Below, piece after piece: positions 3,406-26,714 of a stretch of DNA of 26,973 bases (positions within the stretch are counted from its first letter, which is position 1; every line of letters starts with the position of its first letter). The stretch covers positions 1-26,973 of IMG/VR virus record IMGVR_UViG_3300009285_006862. The stretch is one strand, 5' to 3'. Under the pieces are notes generated by a model. It saw nothing but the letters and a program-made list of their open reading frames with translations, had not been told where the DNA came from and searched no databases. The stretch comes from a virus. The translations under genes were made by a program, and so were the position numbers.

Positions 3406-5292
3406 ATGGCAATCTTTGATTGGTTTAGAAAGAGTAGTGAGACGAAAGTATACAATTCTAGTTTTGCAATAACTGCGCCAAATACCGATATTAAGGAACA
3501 ATTCAAGGGCGAAATAAATAAACGCGGATCACCTATTTCTAGTTTGCGAGAGGATATTGGCGAGGAACACCCATTCGATTTCAAACTTACCGAGGACCTG
3601 TACAAAAAGTTTGGGTTCGTTACTGGTGTCATTGACAAGTACGTTGATTTCGTGGTGGGTCCGGGATTTTATGTTGTTTCCGAGGACGAAAGAGCCAAAA
3701 CAATAATCACCCAGTTTATGCACGATATGAATTTTGATACTTTGCTAAGGGGATGGGTCAAAGAAGCATTGATCAAAGGTAACGGTTTTTTGGAGTTGGG
3801 TGGTAAAAAGGATCAGCCTCCGACGGGCGCCAAGGTATTGGATGCGAATTATATTTATGTCAAGCGTAATGATTTTGGAGATGTTGAGAGGTACACCCAA
3901 TACCGGGGGCGGATATCCAAACTGATCGTCTTTGATCTAACCCAGATTGCCCACATCAAATTCAATAATTTGGCGGATGACGCGTATGGGATTGGTCTAG
4001 TCTATCCGGCACTGAATACTATTAACAATCTTCTCGGTAATGAAAAGGATATGCATATGTTGATGCGGAGGAAGGCAAACGCTCCCTTCCATGTTAAGGT
4101 GGGGAATATAGAACATAACATAATGCCTACCAAAGACCAGATCTCTCAGCTAGGCAAAGATTTGGAATGGTTGCATAACAAACATGAATGGGTTACAGAT
4201 GCTGCGGTCGAGATGAAGGTGTTAGACTTTGGGAATATTGGTGAGAAGTTTGATGCTATCAATCGGTACGACCTCGACATGTTATTCTTCACGTTCCAGG
4301 TTCCGGAAGTATTGATGGGCCGTGGTTCAATCCCCGAGGGGTTAGCCAAAGTTCAATTAGAAGCCTTCGAACGTCGAATTCAAAGTATGCAGGCCGAGAT
4401 AGAAAAGATAATCGAAACCCAAATCTTTAATCGGGTGTTGGTTGCAAACGGAATAACCGCCCATGTTGAGTTCGAGTGGGGGCAAGAATCCGAGTCTCGG
4501 AAGGTTCAGCGTATTGACTCGATTACTAAAATCTTGCAATTGTTTAGTCTGCAACCGAAATTAAGAACAATGTTAGAATCCGAGCTGGCTGTTTTATTGA
4601 ACCTAGATTCCGAGATTTTGATGGATCCAGAGGAGGAACGCGAATTCGAAGAAACCCAACCCCAACCAATCGTGCCCGGCAGTAAGAGATCGCGGGAATC
4701 GATCCCGGGAAACAATTTTGTTGAATATTTGACTGAGGTTGATGAATATCCTTTGAAAGAGTTTGTTGGGTTCAATTATTTGGAATATTTGAAAAACATA
4801 TTTAAGTTCATAGAGAGCAAAGAATTCCCTAAACGTGAGTATAAAGGTTTTGAATTTGTGCCTGGTACAGAACAGAAAGAGTGGCGTGAAGTTATTATAA
4901 GTTATGATTTGCATGACAATTTGAGCGAGAAACAGATTAATAGATTGCGGCTGGTACTTAAGAACGGATTGGGAGAGGGTGCAAGTATCCGTCAGATAGC
5001 AGCAGATATTAAAGATGCAGTTAAGCCTGAGCAGATAGGTAACTTGAGCACTGAATTTCGTAGTTTGCAATTGGCAAGAACCGAAGTAGTTAGGGCCGCA
5101 AATGAAGGCGCCTTGAAAACGTATTCGGATCAGGGGATTAAACGGGTTGAATGGATTTCCGGGGGTTCGGAAAGAACCTGCGCTCGATGCGAGTCGATGA
5201 ATGGCAAACTCTTGAGTTTGGAGGATGCAAAGGAACAGATACCTGTTCATTCGAACTGCAGATGTAATTACGTGCCAGTAATGAAAGGGTGA
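3406..5292 (+). CDS. Portal protein fused to MuF-like head morphogenesis domain
   Basis: A 628-residue protein, longer than ordinary portals. Residues ~1-430 read as an HK97/SPP1-type portal: FDWF at the start, GFVTGVIDKYVDFVVGPGF, YGIGLVYPALNTINNLLGNEKD, and FQVPEVLMGRG followed by the long helix expected of the stem/wing. An acidic linker (EEEREFEETQ) leads into a C-terminal domain of about 150 residues with LARTEVVRAANEGAL, GGSERTCARC (C592, C595) and HSNCRC (C618, C620). That is the signature of the MuF/SPP1 gp7 minor head protein, usually a separate gene just after the portal. The portal is the dodecameric DNA gate. MuF-type proteins join a few copies per capsid and may travel with the DNA. 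Confidence 0.92.
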   Translation: MAIFDWFRKSSETKVYNSSFAITAPNTDIKEQFKGEINKRGSPISSLREDIGEEHPFDFKLTEDLYKKFGFVTGVIDKYVDFVVGPGFYVVSEDERAKTIITQFMHDMNFDTLLRGWVKEALIKGNGFLELGGKKDQPPTGAKVLDANYIYVKRNDFGDVERYTQYRGRISKLIVFDLTQIAHIKFNNLADDAYGIGLVYPALNTINNLLGNEKDMHMLMRRKANAPFHVKVGNIEHNIMPTKDQISQLGKDLEWLHNKHEWVTDAAVEMKVLDFGNIGEKFDAINRYDLDMLFFTFQVPEVLMGRGSIPEGLAKVQLEAFERRIQSMQAEIEKIIETQIFNRVLVANGITAHVEFEWGQESESRKVQRIDSITKILQLFSLQPKLRTMLESELAVLLNLDSEILMDPEEEREFEETQPQPIVPGSKRSRESIPGNNFVEYLTEVDEYPLKEFVGFNYLEYLKNIFKFIESKEFPKREYKGFEFVPGTEQKEWREVIISYDLHDNLSEKQINRLRLVLKNGLGEGASIRQIAADIKDAVKPEQIGNLSTEFRSLQLARTEVVRAANEGALKTYSDQGIKRVEWISGGSERTCARCESMNGKLLSLEDAKEQIPVHSNCRCNYVPVMKG

Positions 5293-20705: not shown

Positions 20706-21440
20706 GTGGCGGTAAGAACAGTCAACTTTGGTTCGGGAACGAATTGGGCAGATGGTGATATTTTATATGCTGCAGATTTGAATCATTCATTGGGTGTTTT
20801 ACCTGGTAGAAATAGATACCGATTCTTCGATGACATGTTTTATAGTTATATGGGGTCGAAGGCAGGGGATTATCAACGTCACGATCCTTACGATTTAATT
20901 TGGAGTTGGGACGGTGTCGGAACTGCCCCCTGGATTTCAGGAATCTCCAATAATGCCGCAGGTGTAATCAGAATACATAACGGGGAGAGGGCAGGAAATA
21001 AAATCGGGTTTGGATTTTTGGCTCAGATATTTTTAGCCGGGTCGGGTTTTTATGTAGAATTACGGATAAGACCGAATTGCGCTGGCTCAGAGATTCCATT
21101 TCTCAAGATGGCAGCAAATACTGCTGCAGATACAACTACTCTGGGCAACAATTATATCCGAATATTTAATGGAACTAATGGGAGTTCGGTTTTAGAATTG
21201 GGTTCTAACAGTGTTGCCAATACCTTTTACTTTTCAAGTAATATGGCAAATAATACATGGTATACACTTGGTCTAGATGTAAAATCTACTCTGGCCACAG
21301 TATATTTGAATGATACGGCGGTGGCTAGTGGAACTACTATCCCCACCGCCAAATTAAATTATTTGCACGTTGTTGATACAACCACCGCGGACGAATATTA
21401 CGATATAGATTATATCCTGATAACGGGGTCGAGGACATAA
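20706..21440 (+). CDS. Receptor-binding-like protein, copy 1
   Basis: 244 residues from GTG. The N-terminus (TVNFGSGTNWADGDILYAADLN) is a motif often used to attach tail fibre proteins. The rest reads as a concanavalin/LamG-like beta sandwich: IGFGFLAQIF, GFYVELRIRPN, WYTLGLDVKSTLATVYLND and a closing YDIDYILITGSRT. The final part is shared with the copy at 21469, so the pair arose by duplication. Such jelly-roll domains bind sugars, in keeping with a receptor-binding role. Confidence 0.7.
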   Translation: MAVRTVNFGSGTNWADGDILYAADLNHSLGVLPGRNRYRFFDDMFYSYMGSKAGDYQRHDPYDLIWSWDGVGTAPWISGISNNAAGVIRIHNGERAGNKIGFGFLAQIFLAGSGFYVELRIRPNCAGSEIPFLKMAANTAADTTTLGNNYIRIFNGTNGSSVLELGSNSVANTFYFSSNMANNTWYTLGLDVKSTLATVYLNDTAVASGTTIPTAKLNYLHVVDTTTADEYYDIDYILITGSRT

Positions 21441-21468: not shown

Positions 21469-22203
21469 ATGGCGATAAGAACGGTTAACTTTGGTTCGGG
21501 AACGAATTGGGCGGACGGCAATGTTTTGTCTGATATAGATCTGAATCATTCTTTGGGCGTGTTATCTGGTAGAAATAGATATAGATTCTTCGATGACATG
21601 TTTTATAGTTATATGGGGTCAAAGGCAGGAGATTATCAACGTCACGGCCCTTACGATTTAATTTGGAGTTGGGACGGTACAGCAACAGCCCCCTGGATCT
21701 CGGGAATTGCCGTTAACAATGCGGGAGTAGTAAGAATACATAACGGAGCAAGGGCAGGAAATAAAATCGGGTTTGGATTTTTGGCTCAGCAATTTAATCC
21801 CGGGTCTGGTTTTTATGTAGAATTACGGATAAGACCGGACTGTGTTGGTGCAGAGATTCCATTTCTCAAGATGGCAGCAAATACTGCTGCAGATACAACT
21901 ACTCTGGGCAGCAATTATCTCCGAATATTTAATGAAACTAATGGGAGTTTGGTTTTAGAATTGGGTTCTAACAACGCAGCCAATACCCTTTACTCTTCAA
22001 GTAATATGACTGCTAGTACGTGGTATACTCTTGGTTTGGAAGTGACCTCTACTCTGGTCAGGGTATATTTGAATGACACTCTGGTTACTAGTGGAACTAC
22101 TATCCCCGCCGAGCAACTAAATTATTTGCACGTTGTTGATACAACCACCGCGGATGAAAAATATGATATAGATTATATCCTGATAACGGGGTCGAGGACA
22201 TAA
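21469..22203 (+). CDS. Receptor-binding-like protein, copy 2
   Basis: Same length and overall sequence as the protein at 20706, from ATG. The attachment motif (NFGSGTNWADGN) and the sandwich strands are kept, while the differing positions cluster in several loop regions: for example FLAGSG versus FNPGSG, and NGTNGSS versus NETNGSL. Long DNA stretches are identical, including the last ~60 bases, so the duplication is recent or maintained by gene conversion. The two may form a mixed fibre or extend host range. Confidence 0.7.
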   Translation: MAIRTVNFGSGTNWADGNVLSDIDLNHSLGVLSGRNRYRFFDDMFYSYMGSKAGDYQRHGPYDLIWSWDGTATAPWISGIAVNNAGVVRIHNGARAGNKIGFGFLAQQFNPGSGFYVELRIRPDCVGAEIPFLKMAANTAADTTTLGSNYLRIFNETNGSLVLELGSNNAANTLYSSSNMTASTWYTLGLEVTSTLVRVYLNDTLVTSGTTIPAEQLNYLHVVDTTTADEKYDIDYILITGSRT

Positions 22204-22709: not shown

Positions 22710-22943
22710 ATGTATACAAAACCTTCCCGGCTTTATAAACTTCGTAAGATTGTTACCAATAACGAAGACGGAGATGTATACGGCGTAACAATGCCTTCTG
22801 AAATTTCTAAAAAATATTCTGATATTTTTTTCACGATAACTGAATCAGGAAATGCTATTGTTCTTGAATCTGGTTGCAAGATACACAAACAACATACAAC
22901 CCATGAAGTTTATTGGCGTGAGACTATCTGGAAGAATAACTAG
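22710..22943 (+). CDS. Small AbrB-like protein (77 aa)
   Basis: VYGVTMPSEISKKYSDIFF and ITESGNAIVLESGCKI have the look of the swapped-hairpin AbrB/MraZ-type DNA-binding fold (xVTIPxE, then IxLxSG). The resemblance is to the first half of such domains, so this is tentative. It stands as the first gene after a promoter and may regulate the cassette that follows. An antitoxin-type role would need a partner toxin, which is not seen. Confidence 0.4.
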   Translation: MYTKPSRLYKLRKIVTNNEDGDVYGVTMPSEISKKYSDIFFTITESGNAIVLESGCKIHKQHTTHEVYWRETIWKNN

Positions 22944-22974
22944 TTGCCAGTTTTGAAGAGAGGAGATAGAATTA

Positions 22975-25392
22975 ATGACAGAAAAAATAAAAGTATTACA
23001 TTTGTCCGATAGCCCATTTATCAATACTGGCTTTTCTTCACAAAGTCTTTGGCTTATGAACGGGCTTGCTAATAAAAATTTTGAATGTCATTATCAAGCC
23101 GCAAATGGATACGCGGGCCAGGATTTACCTAAAGGATGCGTTAAATTACAGGACGGAACTCCATTCGATTTTAGTTTGTATGGGCACGGCCGGGAACCAT
23201 ATTCTTCTGATCTATGGCAACCTCGTATCAACGATGTCAAACCTGAATTTTTTGGGGTTTTGTTAGACACTTTTATGCTGTACCCCAAATGGTTGCAATT
23301 CCCTAACTTCGCCCCCGCCAAATCTTATTTTTGGTTCCCGAGTGACGGAGGTTTAGGTTTGCCTCATTCATGTGACCAGATCCTTAGAAAAGTTAATCTT
23401 CCGGTGGCAATGAGTAAGTTTGCCCAAAAACAAGCCCTTGACTATTACGGTATCAAGACCCATTATATCCCACACGGAATAGACACTACCCTTTTCCATC
23501 CAATGTCGGACAAAGAAAGGGCCGAGGCTAGGGCTAGGTGGGGACTCCAGGATAAATTCGTGGTGGGATGTTTTCTTAAAGGAACGGGAGTATTAATGAA
23601 TGATTTTGAAAAGAAAAAAATTGAAGATATATGTATTGGGGATAAAGTCATATCTCATTATGGGATATCCAGGAAAGTATTGAACACACAAAAGAAAGAA
23701 TTTAAAGGAAATCTTTTTTCGTTAACTATAACTGGTTTATCTTCTTCCCAATTAATCGCCACACAAGAACACCCTATTCTTTCAATAAAAAGAAAAGAAA
23801 TTTTATGTAAATTTCAATCAAGACAAAAGAGAAATTTTATTTGTAGAATGAAAAAATATTCAAATTGTTGGAATTGTCAAAAATACAAAAATACAATAGA
23901 ATTAAAATGGAACCCGGTTAAAAATTTAGAAGTTGGTGATTACGTTGCATTCCCTATACCCAAAGAAATAGAAGATTTGTCAACTATAAATTTAGAATCT
24001 TTATTTGATATAAAAACGATAAATAAATACAGTAAATCTTGTATTCCACTTATTATACCTCTCTCGTATGAATTTTTAAGAATGATTGGCTTATTTCTTG
24101 CTGAAGGTAATTTTATTAAATCCCGGGGCAATCTTAATGGTATAAATTTTACTTTTTCTATAAAAGAAGATATTTTTGTTGAAGAAGTAAAACAAAGTAT
24201 TCATAAAATATTTGGGTTGCAGAGTAATATATATAGAAGAAATAATAAGGGGAGTATAGAGATACGGATAATGAATAAATTATTGGCACATTTATTTAAA
24301 TATTTATGTGGGGAATATGCAAAATATAAACAAATTCATACATTATTAATGAAAATTGATCCACAAAAACAGAAGATAATTTTAGGCGGGTTAATGGCGG
24401 GAGATGGATGGGAAGGAATTAATTCTCATTGTAAAACTACACGAAAAACATTGGCAACAATTTCTGGAAAGCTTGCTGAACAAGTATTAATAATTTGTTT
24501 GAGAAATAAAATTATTGCAAATACATCTAAACAAATCCCAAAAAACAAAAAAAATAATGTTATTTGGAAAATTAATTTCCATGAAAATAAAAGAACACAG
24601 GTGAGTTTTTTTATTGACGATTGGCTTATGAGGCCCATAAGGAAGGTTCATAACAAACAAATAAACGATTATGTGTATAATTTAGAAGTTAAAACAGATA
24701 ATAGTTACATTGTAAATAATGTTGCAGTGCATAATTCAGTAACCAGAAATCAGGGCAGAAAAATGTTGGATCGGCAAATCAAATCGTTCGCATTATTTGC
24801 AAAGGACGTCCCCGAGGCAGTAATGCTGCTTCATACCGATCCTCAGGATGGTGCTGCGGTATTCGATATGCATCATTTGATACGAAAGTATAATATGCAA
24901 AATCGAATCAGGTTTACCGGCCTCCAATTTTTCAAAGGATTCCCGTACCAAAAAATGAATGAGATATATAACCTCATGGATGTATTTTTCTTGTCAACCA
25001 GTGGCGAAGGTTTCGGAATCCCGACACTGGAAGCTAATGCTTGCGGAGTTCCGGCAGTTGTTACCGATTTTACGACGACCCACGAACTTTTAATGGAGAA
25101 TGGTCAGTCGGGGTTACCAGTAAAATTAGCGGGCACGGAACACGTAGACCAGAAACTGTCAGAGGTCCAGAGAGATATTTTGATGGCGGAAGGTACGATA
25201 ACGGGTAGCTGGACTGTTGAAAGAGCTATAATGTCTATTAAAGACGGAGCAAGATGTTTGTCCGAATTATACAAAAACGAAGAACTAAGAAAGGAATTTG
25301 GAAGGAACGGAATTAAAAAAGTAAAACAAATCTATGATTGGCCAATCATAATTAAACAATGGGAAGATTTGTTCAAAAATAATTTGGATTAA
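22975..25392 (+). CDS. GT4-type glycosyltransferase split by an intein
   Basis: 805 residues as encoded. AGGAG precedes the ATG. The host enzyme has a first Rossmann-like part (IKVLHLSDSPFINTGFSSQS, IPHGIDTTLFHP) and a second with the GT4 EX7E motif EGFGIPTLE (E678, E686) followed by GVPAVVTDF. Residues 199-587 are an intein with LAGLIDADG endonuclease, inserted between VVG198 and S588VTRNQGRK, which is the nucleotide-sugar-binding loop of GT4 enzymes. Removing it leaves a 416-residue, normal-sized enzyme. It transfers a sugar from an activated donor; acceptor unknown. The extein uses a more balanced base composition than the AT-rich intein. Confidence 0.92.
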   Translation: MTEKIKVLHLSDSPFINTGFSSQSLWLMNGLANKNFECHYQAANGYAGQDLPKGCVKLQDGTPFDFSLYGHGREPYSSDLWQPRINDVKPEFFGVLLDTFMLYPKWLQFPNFAPAKSYFWFPSDGGLGLPHSCDQILRKVNLPVAMSKFAQKQALDYYGIKTHYIPHGIDTTLFHPMSDKERAEARARWGLQDKFVVGCFLKGTGVLMNDFEKKKIEDICIGDKVISHYGISRKVLNTQKKEFKGNLFSLTITGLSSSQLIATQEHPILSIKRKEILCKFQSRQKRNFICRMKKYSNCWNCQKYKNTIELKWNPVKNLEVGDYVAFPIPKEIEDLSTINLESLFDIKTINKYSKSCIPLIIPLSYEFLRMIGLFLAEGNFIKSRGNLNGINFTFSIKEDIFVEEVKQSIHKIFGLQSNIYRRNNKGSIEIRIMNKLLAHLFKYLCGEYAKYKQIHTLLMKIDPQKQKIILGGLMAGDGWEGINSHCKTTRKTLATISGKLAEQVLIICLRNKIIANTSKQIPKNKKNNVIWKINFHENKRTQVSFFIDDWLMRPIRKVHNKQINDYVYNLEVKTDNSYIVNNVAVHNSVTRNQGRKMLDRQIKSFALFAKDVPEAVMLLHTDPQDGAAVFDMHHLIRKYNMQNRIRFTGLQFFKGFPYQKMNEIYNLMDVFFLSTSGEGFGIPTLEANACGVPAVVTDFTTTHELLMENGQSGLPVKLAGTEHVDQKLSEVQRDILMAEGTITGSWTVERAIMSIKDGARCLSELYKNEELRKEFGRNGIKKVKQIYDWPIIIKQWEDLFKNNLD
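23569..24735 (+). mobile_element. LAGLIDADG intein (389 aa) in the glycosyltransferase
   Basis: Begins with Cys199 (CFLKGTGVLM) and ends VAVHN with Ser+1, the standard splice junctions. Block B is ATQEHPIL (T263, H266), block F/G contains VYNLEVKTDNSYIVNN. The two endonuclease motifs are MIGLFLAEGN and LGGLMAGDGW. A four-Cys cluster (C278, C290, C298, C301) lies before the endonuclease. The DNA is clearly more AT-rich than both flanks. Self-splicing and homing activity are inferred from intact motifs. Confidence 0.9.
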
Positions 25393-25397
25393 CTAAA

Positions 25398-26714
25398 ATG
25401 GGAAAACGCTTATTGTTAATGTCTTTACGCTCTCCATACTTAGACGACGCCAAAGTTTATCCTCCACTAGGAATTCTATATTTGAAATCTGCGGCCGAAA
25501 AACAAATTTCCGATCTTGAAATTGATTTAATGGACGATTACGATCTCAACGATCCTTCTTTATTTGATCCGTATGATTTTGTTGGGTTGAGTGTGATGAC
25601 CCCTCAACGTGAAGAAGCAAACCGAGTATTAACCCGAATAAAAGATTTAGATCCGAAAAAGAAAGTCATAATTGGAGGCCCGCACGCGCAATTCTATTTT
25701 GATGAAGTACAGAGACAACCATGGGATCATATTGTTTTAAGGGATGGCCAGAGAAGTTTAGTAAGAATCTTGCAAGGCGATGAAAGAAGAATATATTCTG
25801 ACATTCTAAATAAACAGGAATGGAAAGATCAACCAAATCCAGACAGAACAAGCGATATAGCAAGAAAGTTTTTAGCGCAATATAATTATACTTTGCAGGG
25901 GAAGCGTGCAGGGACTATGCTAACTGCAACGGGCTGTCCCGAACTTTGCAAATTTTGTGAGGATAGTCAAACACAGGTAAGGTGGCGGAGTGTAGAAACG
26001 TTGGCACAGGAAATGGATGATCTTCTGAGTTTGGGGTATCAGGGGGTATATTTGTTCGATGACATTTTTTCTATTGCCATGCACCAGATTAAACCAATAT
26101 TGGTGGAATTAAAAAAAAGAGATTTAGTATTCAGATGTAATGGTCAAGCAAGATATTTCACCAAATGGGGCGAAGACTTTGCAAAGTTATTAGCGGAACA
26201 CGGGTGTGCCGAGATTGCATTTGGCCACGAAACCGGGAGTCAGAAGATATTAGATAATATACAAAAAAGAACAACTGTCCAACAAAATTATGATTCAGTT
26301 ATTTACGCAAAAAAGTATGGGGTAAAGGTAAAATCTTTTATACTGCTGGGTCTCCCTGGAGAAGATATGGAGACACTTGCCGAAACTGAACGATTTGTTG
26401 CAACTGCAGGAATGGACGACTTCCAGTGTTGTGTATTTATGCCGTTTAAAGGAACAAAAATAAGAGAGAGTATTGATAGGGGGGAAACCATCGATTTAAA
26501 AATAGAAGCCAAGGGTGCTGATGGAGAAATAACGGGCGCATACGGCATTAAGGGGGGAGAGTCTTCCTATGAAGTAAGGACGGGGGCATTATCTTCCAAA
26601 GACTTAGAAGATTTTAGAAATTATTTGGTAACCACTTATAAACCCAAATCACATGCGAAAAAGTGGCAAGAAGATAAATTTTTTGATATTGGAAAAGATA
26701 CACATTCGATATAA
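25398..26714 (+). CDS. B12-binding-type radical SAM enzyme
   Basis: 438 residues. The N-terminal part (YPPLGILYLKSAAEK, VGLSVMTPQ, VIIGGPHAQF) is like the Rossmann-type cobalamin-binding domain of B12-dependent radical SAM proteins. The cluster motif is GCPELCKFCED with Cys180, 184 and 187 (CxxxCxxC). Later segments GLPGEDMETL and FMPFKGTKI fit the TIM-barrel end. These enzymes use an iron-sulphur cluster, SAM and often cobalamin for methylation or ring/chain modifications. It starts five bases after the glycosyltransferase stop. A sugar- or lipid-modifying role is likely from context but is not proven. Confidence 0.85.
   Translation: MGKRLLLMSLRSPYLDDAKVYPPLGILYLKSAAEKQISDLEIDLMDDYDLNDPSLFDPYDFVGLSVMTPQREEANRVLTRIKDLDPKKKVIIGGPHAQFYFDEVQRQPWDHIVLRDGQRSLVRILQGDERRIYSDILNKQEWKDQPNPDRTSDIARKFLAQYNYTLQGKRAGTMLTATGCPELCKFCEDSQTQVRWRSVETLAQEMDDLLSLGYQGVYLFDDIFSIAMHQIKPILVELKKRDLVFRCNGQARYFTKWGEDFAKLLAEHGCAEIAFGHETGSQKILDNIQKRTTVQQNYDSVIYAKKYGVKVKSFILLGLPGEDMETLAETERFVATAGMDDFQCCVFMPFKGTKIRESIDRGETIDLKIEAKGADGEITGAYGIKGGESSYEVRTGALSSKDLEDFRNYLVTTYKPKSHAKKWQEDKFFDIGKDTHSI

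Follow-up and report, generated by a model that had tools for sequence, protein, structure and literature searches.

The interrupted gene and its neighbours

The window, by which is meant the whole stretch of 26,973 nucleotides of viral DNA analysed here (IMG/VR record IMGVR_UViG_3300009285_006862), carries near its end a single open frame (22975-25392) that has no internal stop and in which the coding sequence of a GT4-type glycosyltransferase is interrupted by that of an intein, with the frame intact at both intein junctions. The locus comprises the following features, all on the plus strand.

22710..22943 (+), gene of 77 aa, the first of a conserved three-gene cassette, its homologues in L144 and L147 lying immediately 5' of the intein-free enzyme
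22975..25392 (+), precursor ORF of 805 aa, ATG to stop, GT4-type glycosyltransferase with in-frame intein (ORF reading, Pfam)
22975..23568 (+), N-extein, residues 1-198, C-terminal end ...KFVVG (alignments; GT-B N-domain well modelled)
23569..24735 (+), intein of 389 aa, precursor residues 199-587, CFLKGTGVLM...NNVAVHN (Pfam PF14890, PF14528 and PF05203; model)
23569..23571 (+), Cys1, predicted first splicing nucleophile (sequence, alignment)
23761..23772 (+), block B TQEH, intein residues 65-68 (sequence, alignment)
23806..23877 (+), Cys-bearing insert, intein residues 80-103, with C80, C92, C100 and C103 (sequence; low model confidence)
24052..24588 (+), LAGLIDADG homing endonuclease domain, intein residues 162-340 (PF14528; structural match to I-DmoI and I-Tsp061I)
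24076..24108 (+), LAGLIDADG motif 1, LRMIGLFLAEG, acidic residue E179 (sequence, alignment)
24328..24330 (+), Lys254, near-invariant endonuclease lysine (alignment)
24379..24408 (+), LAGLIDADG motif 2, ILGGLMAGDG, acidic residue D279 (sequence, alignment)
24673..24735 (+), C-terminal splicing blocks, VYNLEVKTDNSYIVNNVAVHN, with penultimate His388 and Asn389 (sequence, alignment)
24736..25389 (+), C-extein, residues 588-805, starting at Ser+1 (SVTRNQGRK) (PF00534, alignments)
25398..26714 (+), B12-binding radical SAM protein, the third of the cassette (PF04055, PF02310), with homologues beside the enzyme in L144, L147 and L148

The C-extein matches the Pfam family PF00534 (Glycos_transf_1) within the precursor at 1e-14, above the curated cut-off, and the match improves to 1.7e-17 in the spliced form, in which the joined exteins give a protein of 416 aa. 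Alignment of relatives shows the invariant residues of GEGFGIPTLEA, including the EGFG...E motif, and the extein family corresponds to the phage glycosyltransferases of PHROG 2170. In a structure model of the precursor both extein parts are confidently predicted, adopt a GT-B fold and, when the insert is passed over, match MshA, sucrose-phosphate synthase, BshA and PimB'; the intein itself is modelled with low confidence there because the alignment used for the precursor contained no inteins. The enzyme thus shares family and fold with MshA, BshA, PimB' and the PHROG 2170 proteins, all of which, in contrast to it, are intein-free. Domain, fold and motif together place the extein among the GT4 glycosyltransferases, as an earlier note on this DNA had held, and it is predicted to be a sugar transferase.

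The three-gene cassette is complete in L144, where the enzyme lacks an intein; the enzyme and the radical SAM gene are common to L147 and L148, and the small gene is also found in L147. For the radical SAM protein the nearest NCBIfam models, among them P-methyltransferases and HpnJ, all score far below cut-off, and the cassette (22710-26714) may be a module that modifies glycans or the virion. Elsewhere in the window, a 628-aa ORF (3406-5292) fuses a portal domain to a Mu F-like head morphogenesis domain (Pfam), and two adjacent 244-aa ORFs (20706-21440 and 21469-22203) with weak lectin-like or laminin-G-like matches are perhaps duplicated virion proteins.

Anatomy of the intein and its nearest known relatives

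Three Pfam families are matched inside the intein, all above their curated cut-offs: PF14890 (Intein_splicing, 1e-9), PF14528 (LAGLIDADG_3, 2e-8) and PF05203 (Hom_end_hint, 1e-7). Class 1 inteins are defined by Cys, Ser or Thr at position 1, a C-terminal Asn, and Cys, Ser or Thr at position +1 (PMC4031507). Direct reading of the sequence gives Cys1, T65-x-x-H68 (TQEH), H388-N389 and Ser+1 as splicing residues, and removal of the insert restores an uninterrupted homologue. The endonuclease contributes E179 in GLFLAEG, K254, and D279 in GLMAGDG, so that each of the two LAGLIDADG motifs carries an acidic residue. Four positions (H68, G180, D279 and N389) do not vary among 21 aligned phage inteins, and C1, T65, K254, G280 and H388 are nearly invariant. 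Block F reads VYN...DNS, not the commoner VYD...H, and the Asp (F:4) and His (F:13) are therefore missing; as these are less conserved assisting residues (PMC4031507) and the variant is common to related phage inteins in the alignment, their loss is not disqualifying.

Modelled separately with 21 intein sequences (AlphaFold2), the intein reaches a pLDDT of 89.6, with its endonuclease domain at high confidence. The top Foldseek matches are all inteins that combine splicing and endonuclease domains, and VIA gives a Z of 31.3 with the TliVMA intein (7qsu; 318 residues, 2.8 Å) and of 31.1 with PI-PkoII (2cw7). Full-length inteins match the model over 318-331 residues at 2.8-3.4 Å, PI-SceI also being among the matches, and mini-inteins such as that of Mtu RecA (Z 18.7) are matched as well, which assigns the model to the HINT fold. 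Intein residues 162-341 align structurally to I-DmoI (Z 15.9) and I-Tsp061I. Family models, residues and the empty sites described below confirm 23569-24735 as a complete class 1 LAGLIDADG intein, predicted to splice; the earlier note had placed it at exactly these coordinates and had read its splice residues and both endonuclease motifs as intact.

By sequence, the top PDB entry is 2cw7 (E 8e-4), the Pol intein 2 of Thermococcus kodakarensis. It and TliVMA resemble the window intein in pairing, in the same arrangement, a HINT splicing domain and a single LAGLIDADG endonuclease with two motifs, but are only 16-19% identical to it and reside in a DNA polymerase and a V-ATPase, not a sugar transferase. 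The closest full-length phage relatives in GenBank are the inteins in the 'tRNA synthetase' and the portal protein of Eggerthella phage LE2-3 (MW679026; 22-26% identity), host proteins that likewise differ from the glycosyltransferase. These two inteins (L007 and L010) lie a few kb apart, and that of the 'tRNA synthetase' has a C/H-bearing insert (CICGRSFKSHRSLAAH) resembling a zinc finger. The intein of the cyanophage CL131 dCTP deaminase, which self-excises in E. coli, also interrupts a phage enzyme and, like that of the window, has been matched to the T. kodakarensis intein; its host, unlike the glycosyltransferase, belongs to nucleotide metabolism (PMC6293099).

The insertion site and its empty counterparts

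The insertion point, FVVG|SVTRNQGRK (the bar marks the junction), lies where the first strand of the C-terminal nucleotide-sugar domain ends, and in the precursor model the insert is placed after strand 195-200 and before helix 598-609. In an alignment to 6kih the segment VTRNQGRK, which directly follows the join, falls over VGRFDRRK, presumably the Arg...Lys loop that binds the donor phosphates in GT4 enzymes. The placement in the nucleotide-sugar loop, also proposed from the sequence by the earlier note, is therefore borne out by the structure models, and since the insert disrupts this loop the unspliced protein should be inactive.

The boundary between G198 and S588 is supported by relatives that read straight across it. 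The enzyme of Pontimonas phage phiPsal1 aligns without a gap over the join (KFVVG-SVTRN against EFVIG-MVAAN), as do those of Microcystis, Synechococcus and Tetrasphaera phages; a Pontimonas match that appeared to extend into the intein was an alignment overrun, the Pontimonas gene having no intein. A scan of IMG/VR found 461 relatives; the 80 best were retained, and in all 80 the site is empty, the alignment crossing it with at most 7 aa inserted; the closest of the 80 (L064-L066) are 49% identical. L144, a phage found through its TerL (35% identity), has an intein-free enzyme that is 55% identical and stands in the same three-gene cassette; its site, the nearest empty one, carries Ser at +1. 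The empty sites in all relatives retrieved fit a gain of the intein in the window lineage.

The account that we consider very probable is that of a class 1 LAGLIDADG intein in a GT4-type phage glycosyltransferase that most likely splices itself out and homes. After translation, an acyl shift at Cys1 would be followed by transfer to Ser+1, cyclisation of Asn389 and a further acyl shift, and the product would be the 416-aa enzyme with its donor-binding loop uninterrupted and its activity presumably restored. During co-infection the endonuclease domain would cut intein-free alleles of the same gene, and repair would copy the intein into them. There is very little chance that the Hint/LAGLIDADG insert cleaves without ligation to leave two enzyme halves, as Cys1, His388-Asn389 and Ser+1 are all present and the loop that it interrupts is conserved and kept whole by relatives.

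An intein that still splices, but whose endonuclease is inactive or no longer has a target and which is inherited vertically, is an unlikely but more serious alternative to homing. Searching the whole 805-aa protein against IMG/VR recovered no near-identical allele, either occupied or empty, and among close kin there is no second carrier, the best 80 of the 461 relatives all being empty, which would suit such a domesticated element. Against it, the endonuclease domain is confidently modelled and retains K254 and the two acidic residues, and empty sites, the nearest with Ser+1, are plentiful. Patterns for the same-site C-terminal junction matched in IMG/VR only the 213-kb contig described below; these patterns are narrow, so that the absence of further same-site matches is weak evidence. 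A pattern made for this site in cellular GT4 enzymes, also narrow, gave one match in 84,980 genomes, which was discarded as a chance reading of 15 codons.

Other intein-bearing phage glycosyltransferases and the history of the element

The DNA pattern HN|[SCT]xxRNQxRK retrieved one 213-kb contig (L062, IMGVR_UViG_3300037461_000428). Here a 1253-aa ORF (L145:2287-6048) encodes a homologous glycosyltransferase with two inteins, which make up about 60% of the ORF; the precursor has no Pfam glycosyltransferase match, and its identity comes from alignment to the window extein. One intein (L145:3061-4188) occupies a site identical to that in the window (FLIG|CFLKDTPV...GVHN|SVARNQPRK), and the other interrupts the EGFG motif (SEGF|CSFGDTRI...AVHN|CLPVIE), whereas the window enzyme has a single intein. 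The two same-site inteins share Cys1, the terminal Asn and Ser+1 and are about 30-35% identical, but that of L145 is without the Cys-bearing insert (23806-23877 in the window), for which metal binding is possibly a role.

The second contig bears on two further readings. Conditional splicing, responsive to redox state, metal or temperature, might turn the sugar transferase on under certain conditions only, with the Cys-bearing insert as sensor; the position in the donor-binding loop, which should leave the unspliced enzyme inactive, and the four cysteines (C80, C92, C100, C103) of a segment poorly ordered in the model without a ligand would agree with such a role. We nevertheless regard it as quite improbable, since the same-site intein of L145 lacks the insert and relatives of the enzyme do without any intein. 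To an assembly chimera or chance reading, which could be raised because the window is one metagenomic contig, we give next to no credence: the frame is kept at both junctions, the boundaries are residue-exact, and L145 is an independent contig with an intein at the same site.

Returning to the intein as a self-splicing, homing element, its GC content is 26.6%, whereas the exteins have 42.9% and 40.8% (15-16 points more) and every other 1167-bp stretch sampled in the window at least 32.9%. None of 40 other phage inteins compared shows so large a drop. However, 39 of the 40 are likewise AT-richer than their own exteins, by a mean of 6 points, and composition alone is therefore weak evidence of recency; of the earlier suggestion that an AT-rich insert had arrived recently, the compositional part holds and the timing is weakly supported. 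A tree built from 34 inteins groups that of the window with the same-site intein of L145 and with L011 (support 93/72). L011, which resides in an unrelated host protein, falls between the two same-site inteins, so that in this tree these alone do not appear as a clade, and a tree that forces them together is not rejected (p-AU 0.227). As judged from these sequences, an old lineage specific to this site and separate arrivals of the two inteins are therefore both possible.

Intein alignments were used to pull intein-like loci from IMG/VR, 51 at first and then 22 (4 already seen), or about 69 in total. Further glycosyltransferase hosts were L146/L043 (INVS|CLPAGELI...TTHN|CAEGFG; PF00534 3e-7), L156 (SETF|CCLPGTQI...IVHN|CITAVSAG), where the host is a multi-domain GT4-GT2 polypeptide, and L023 (PDIV|CVPPWTKV...IVHN|CDIRDEW), whose spliced form matches PF00534 weakly (9e-4) and the extein profile at E 1e-22. 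With the window, the tally is six inteins at four positions in five phage glycosyltransferases. The positions are VVG|S before the RNQxRK loop (window and L145), the EGF|xLP motif (L145 and L156), just upstream of AEGFG (L146), and PDIV|CD in the N-domain (L023); three of the four are in or beside donor-binding motifs. As the sample is skewed to relatives of the window intein, the 4 of about 69 loci give no general frequency among phages. L074, taken at one stage for a glycosyltransferase with an insert, proved to hold two tandem enzyme genes; the two, which differ from each other, lie at L074:2614-4924 in another phage contig, directly 5' of a 471-aa terminase large subunit-like ORF. Plasmid records yielded no glycosyltransferase carrying an intein over most of its length.

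Phage genes that carry inteins are already well known (PMC5050341, PMC6293099), and inteins in general are concentrated in proteins of replication, repair and recombination (PMC5874633). Those of mycobacteriophages sit at functional motifs of phage proteins, and some splice and cut; their hosts, unlike that in the window, are terminase, RecB-like, nucleotidyltransferase, methylase, portal and similar proteins, and the word stem 'glycosyl' is absent from the text of that report (PMC5050341). A search of full-text, open-access literature found no earlier report of an intein in a glycosyltransferase, co-mentions being unrelated where checked. The intein is of a well-known type, in a host enzyme that is out of the ordinary. 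The view that such a host is rare stands as regards published cases, and is tempered by the four additional phage cases among the loci sampled, one of them at the same site. On balance we favour the interpretation that inteins have repeatedly, and so far without recognition, targeted phage GT4-type glycosyltransferases, with one position common to two distantly related phages.

Annotation pipelines can mistake such intein-split genes for fused or broken ones. Inteins in sugar-transfer enzymes, which phages may use to alter surface glycans, widen the known host range of these elements, and the availability of several independent cases allows one to ask whether what inteins follow is not DNA metabolism in itself but conserved sites of nucleotide binding. 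If the recurrent targeting is true, inteins would track conserved nucleotide-binding motifs beyond DNA metabolism too.
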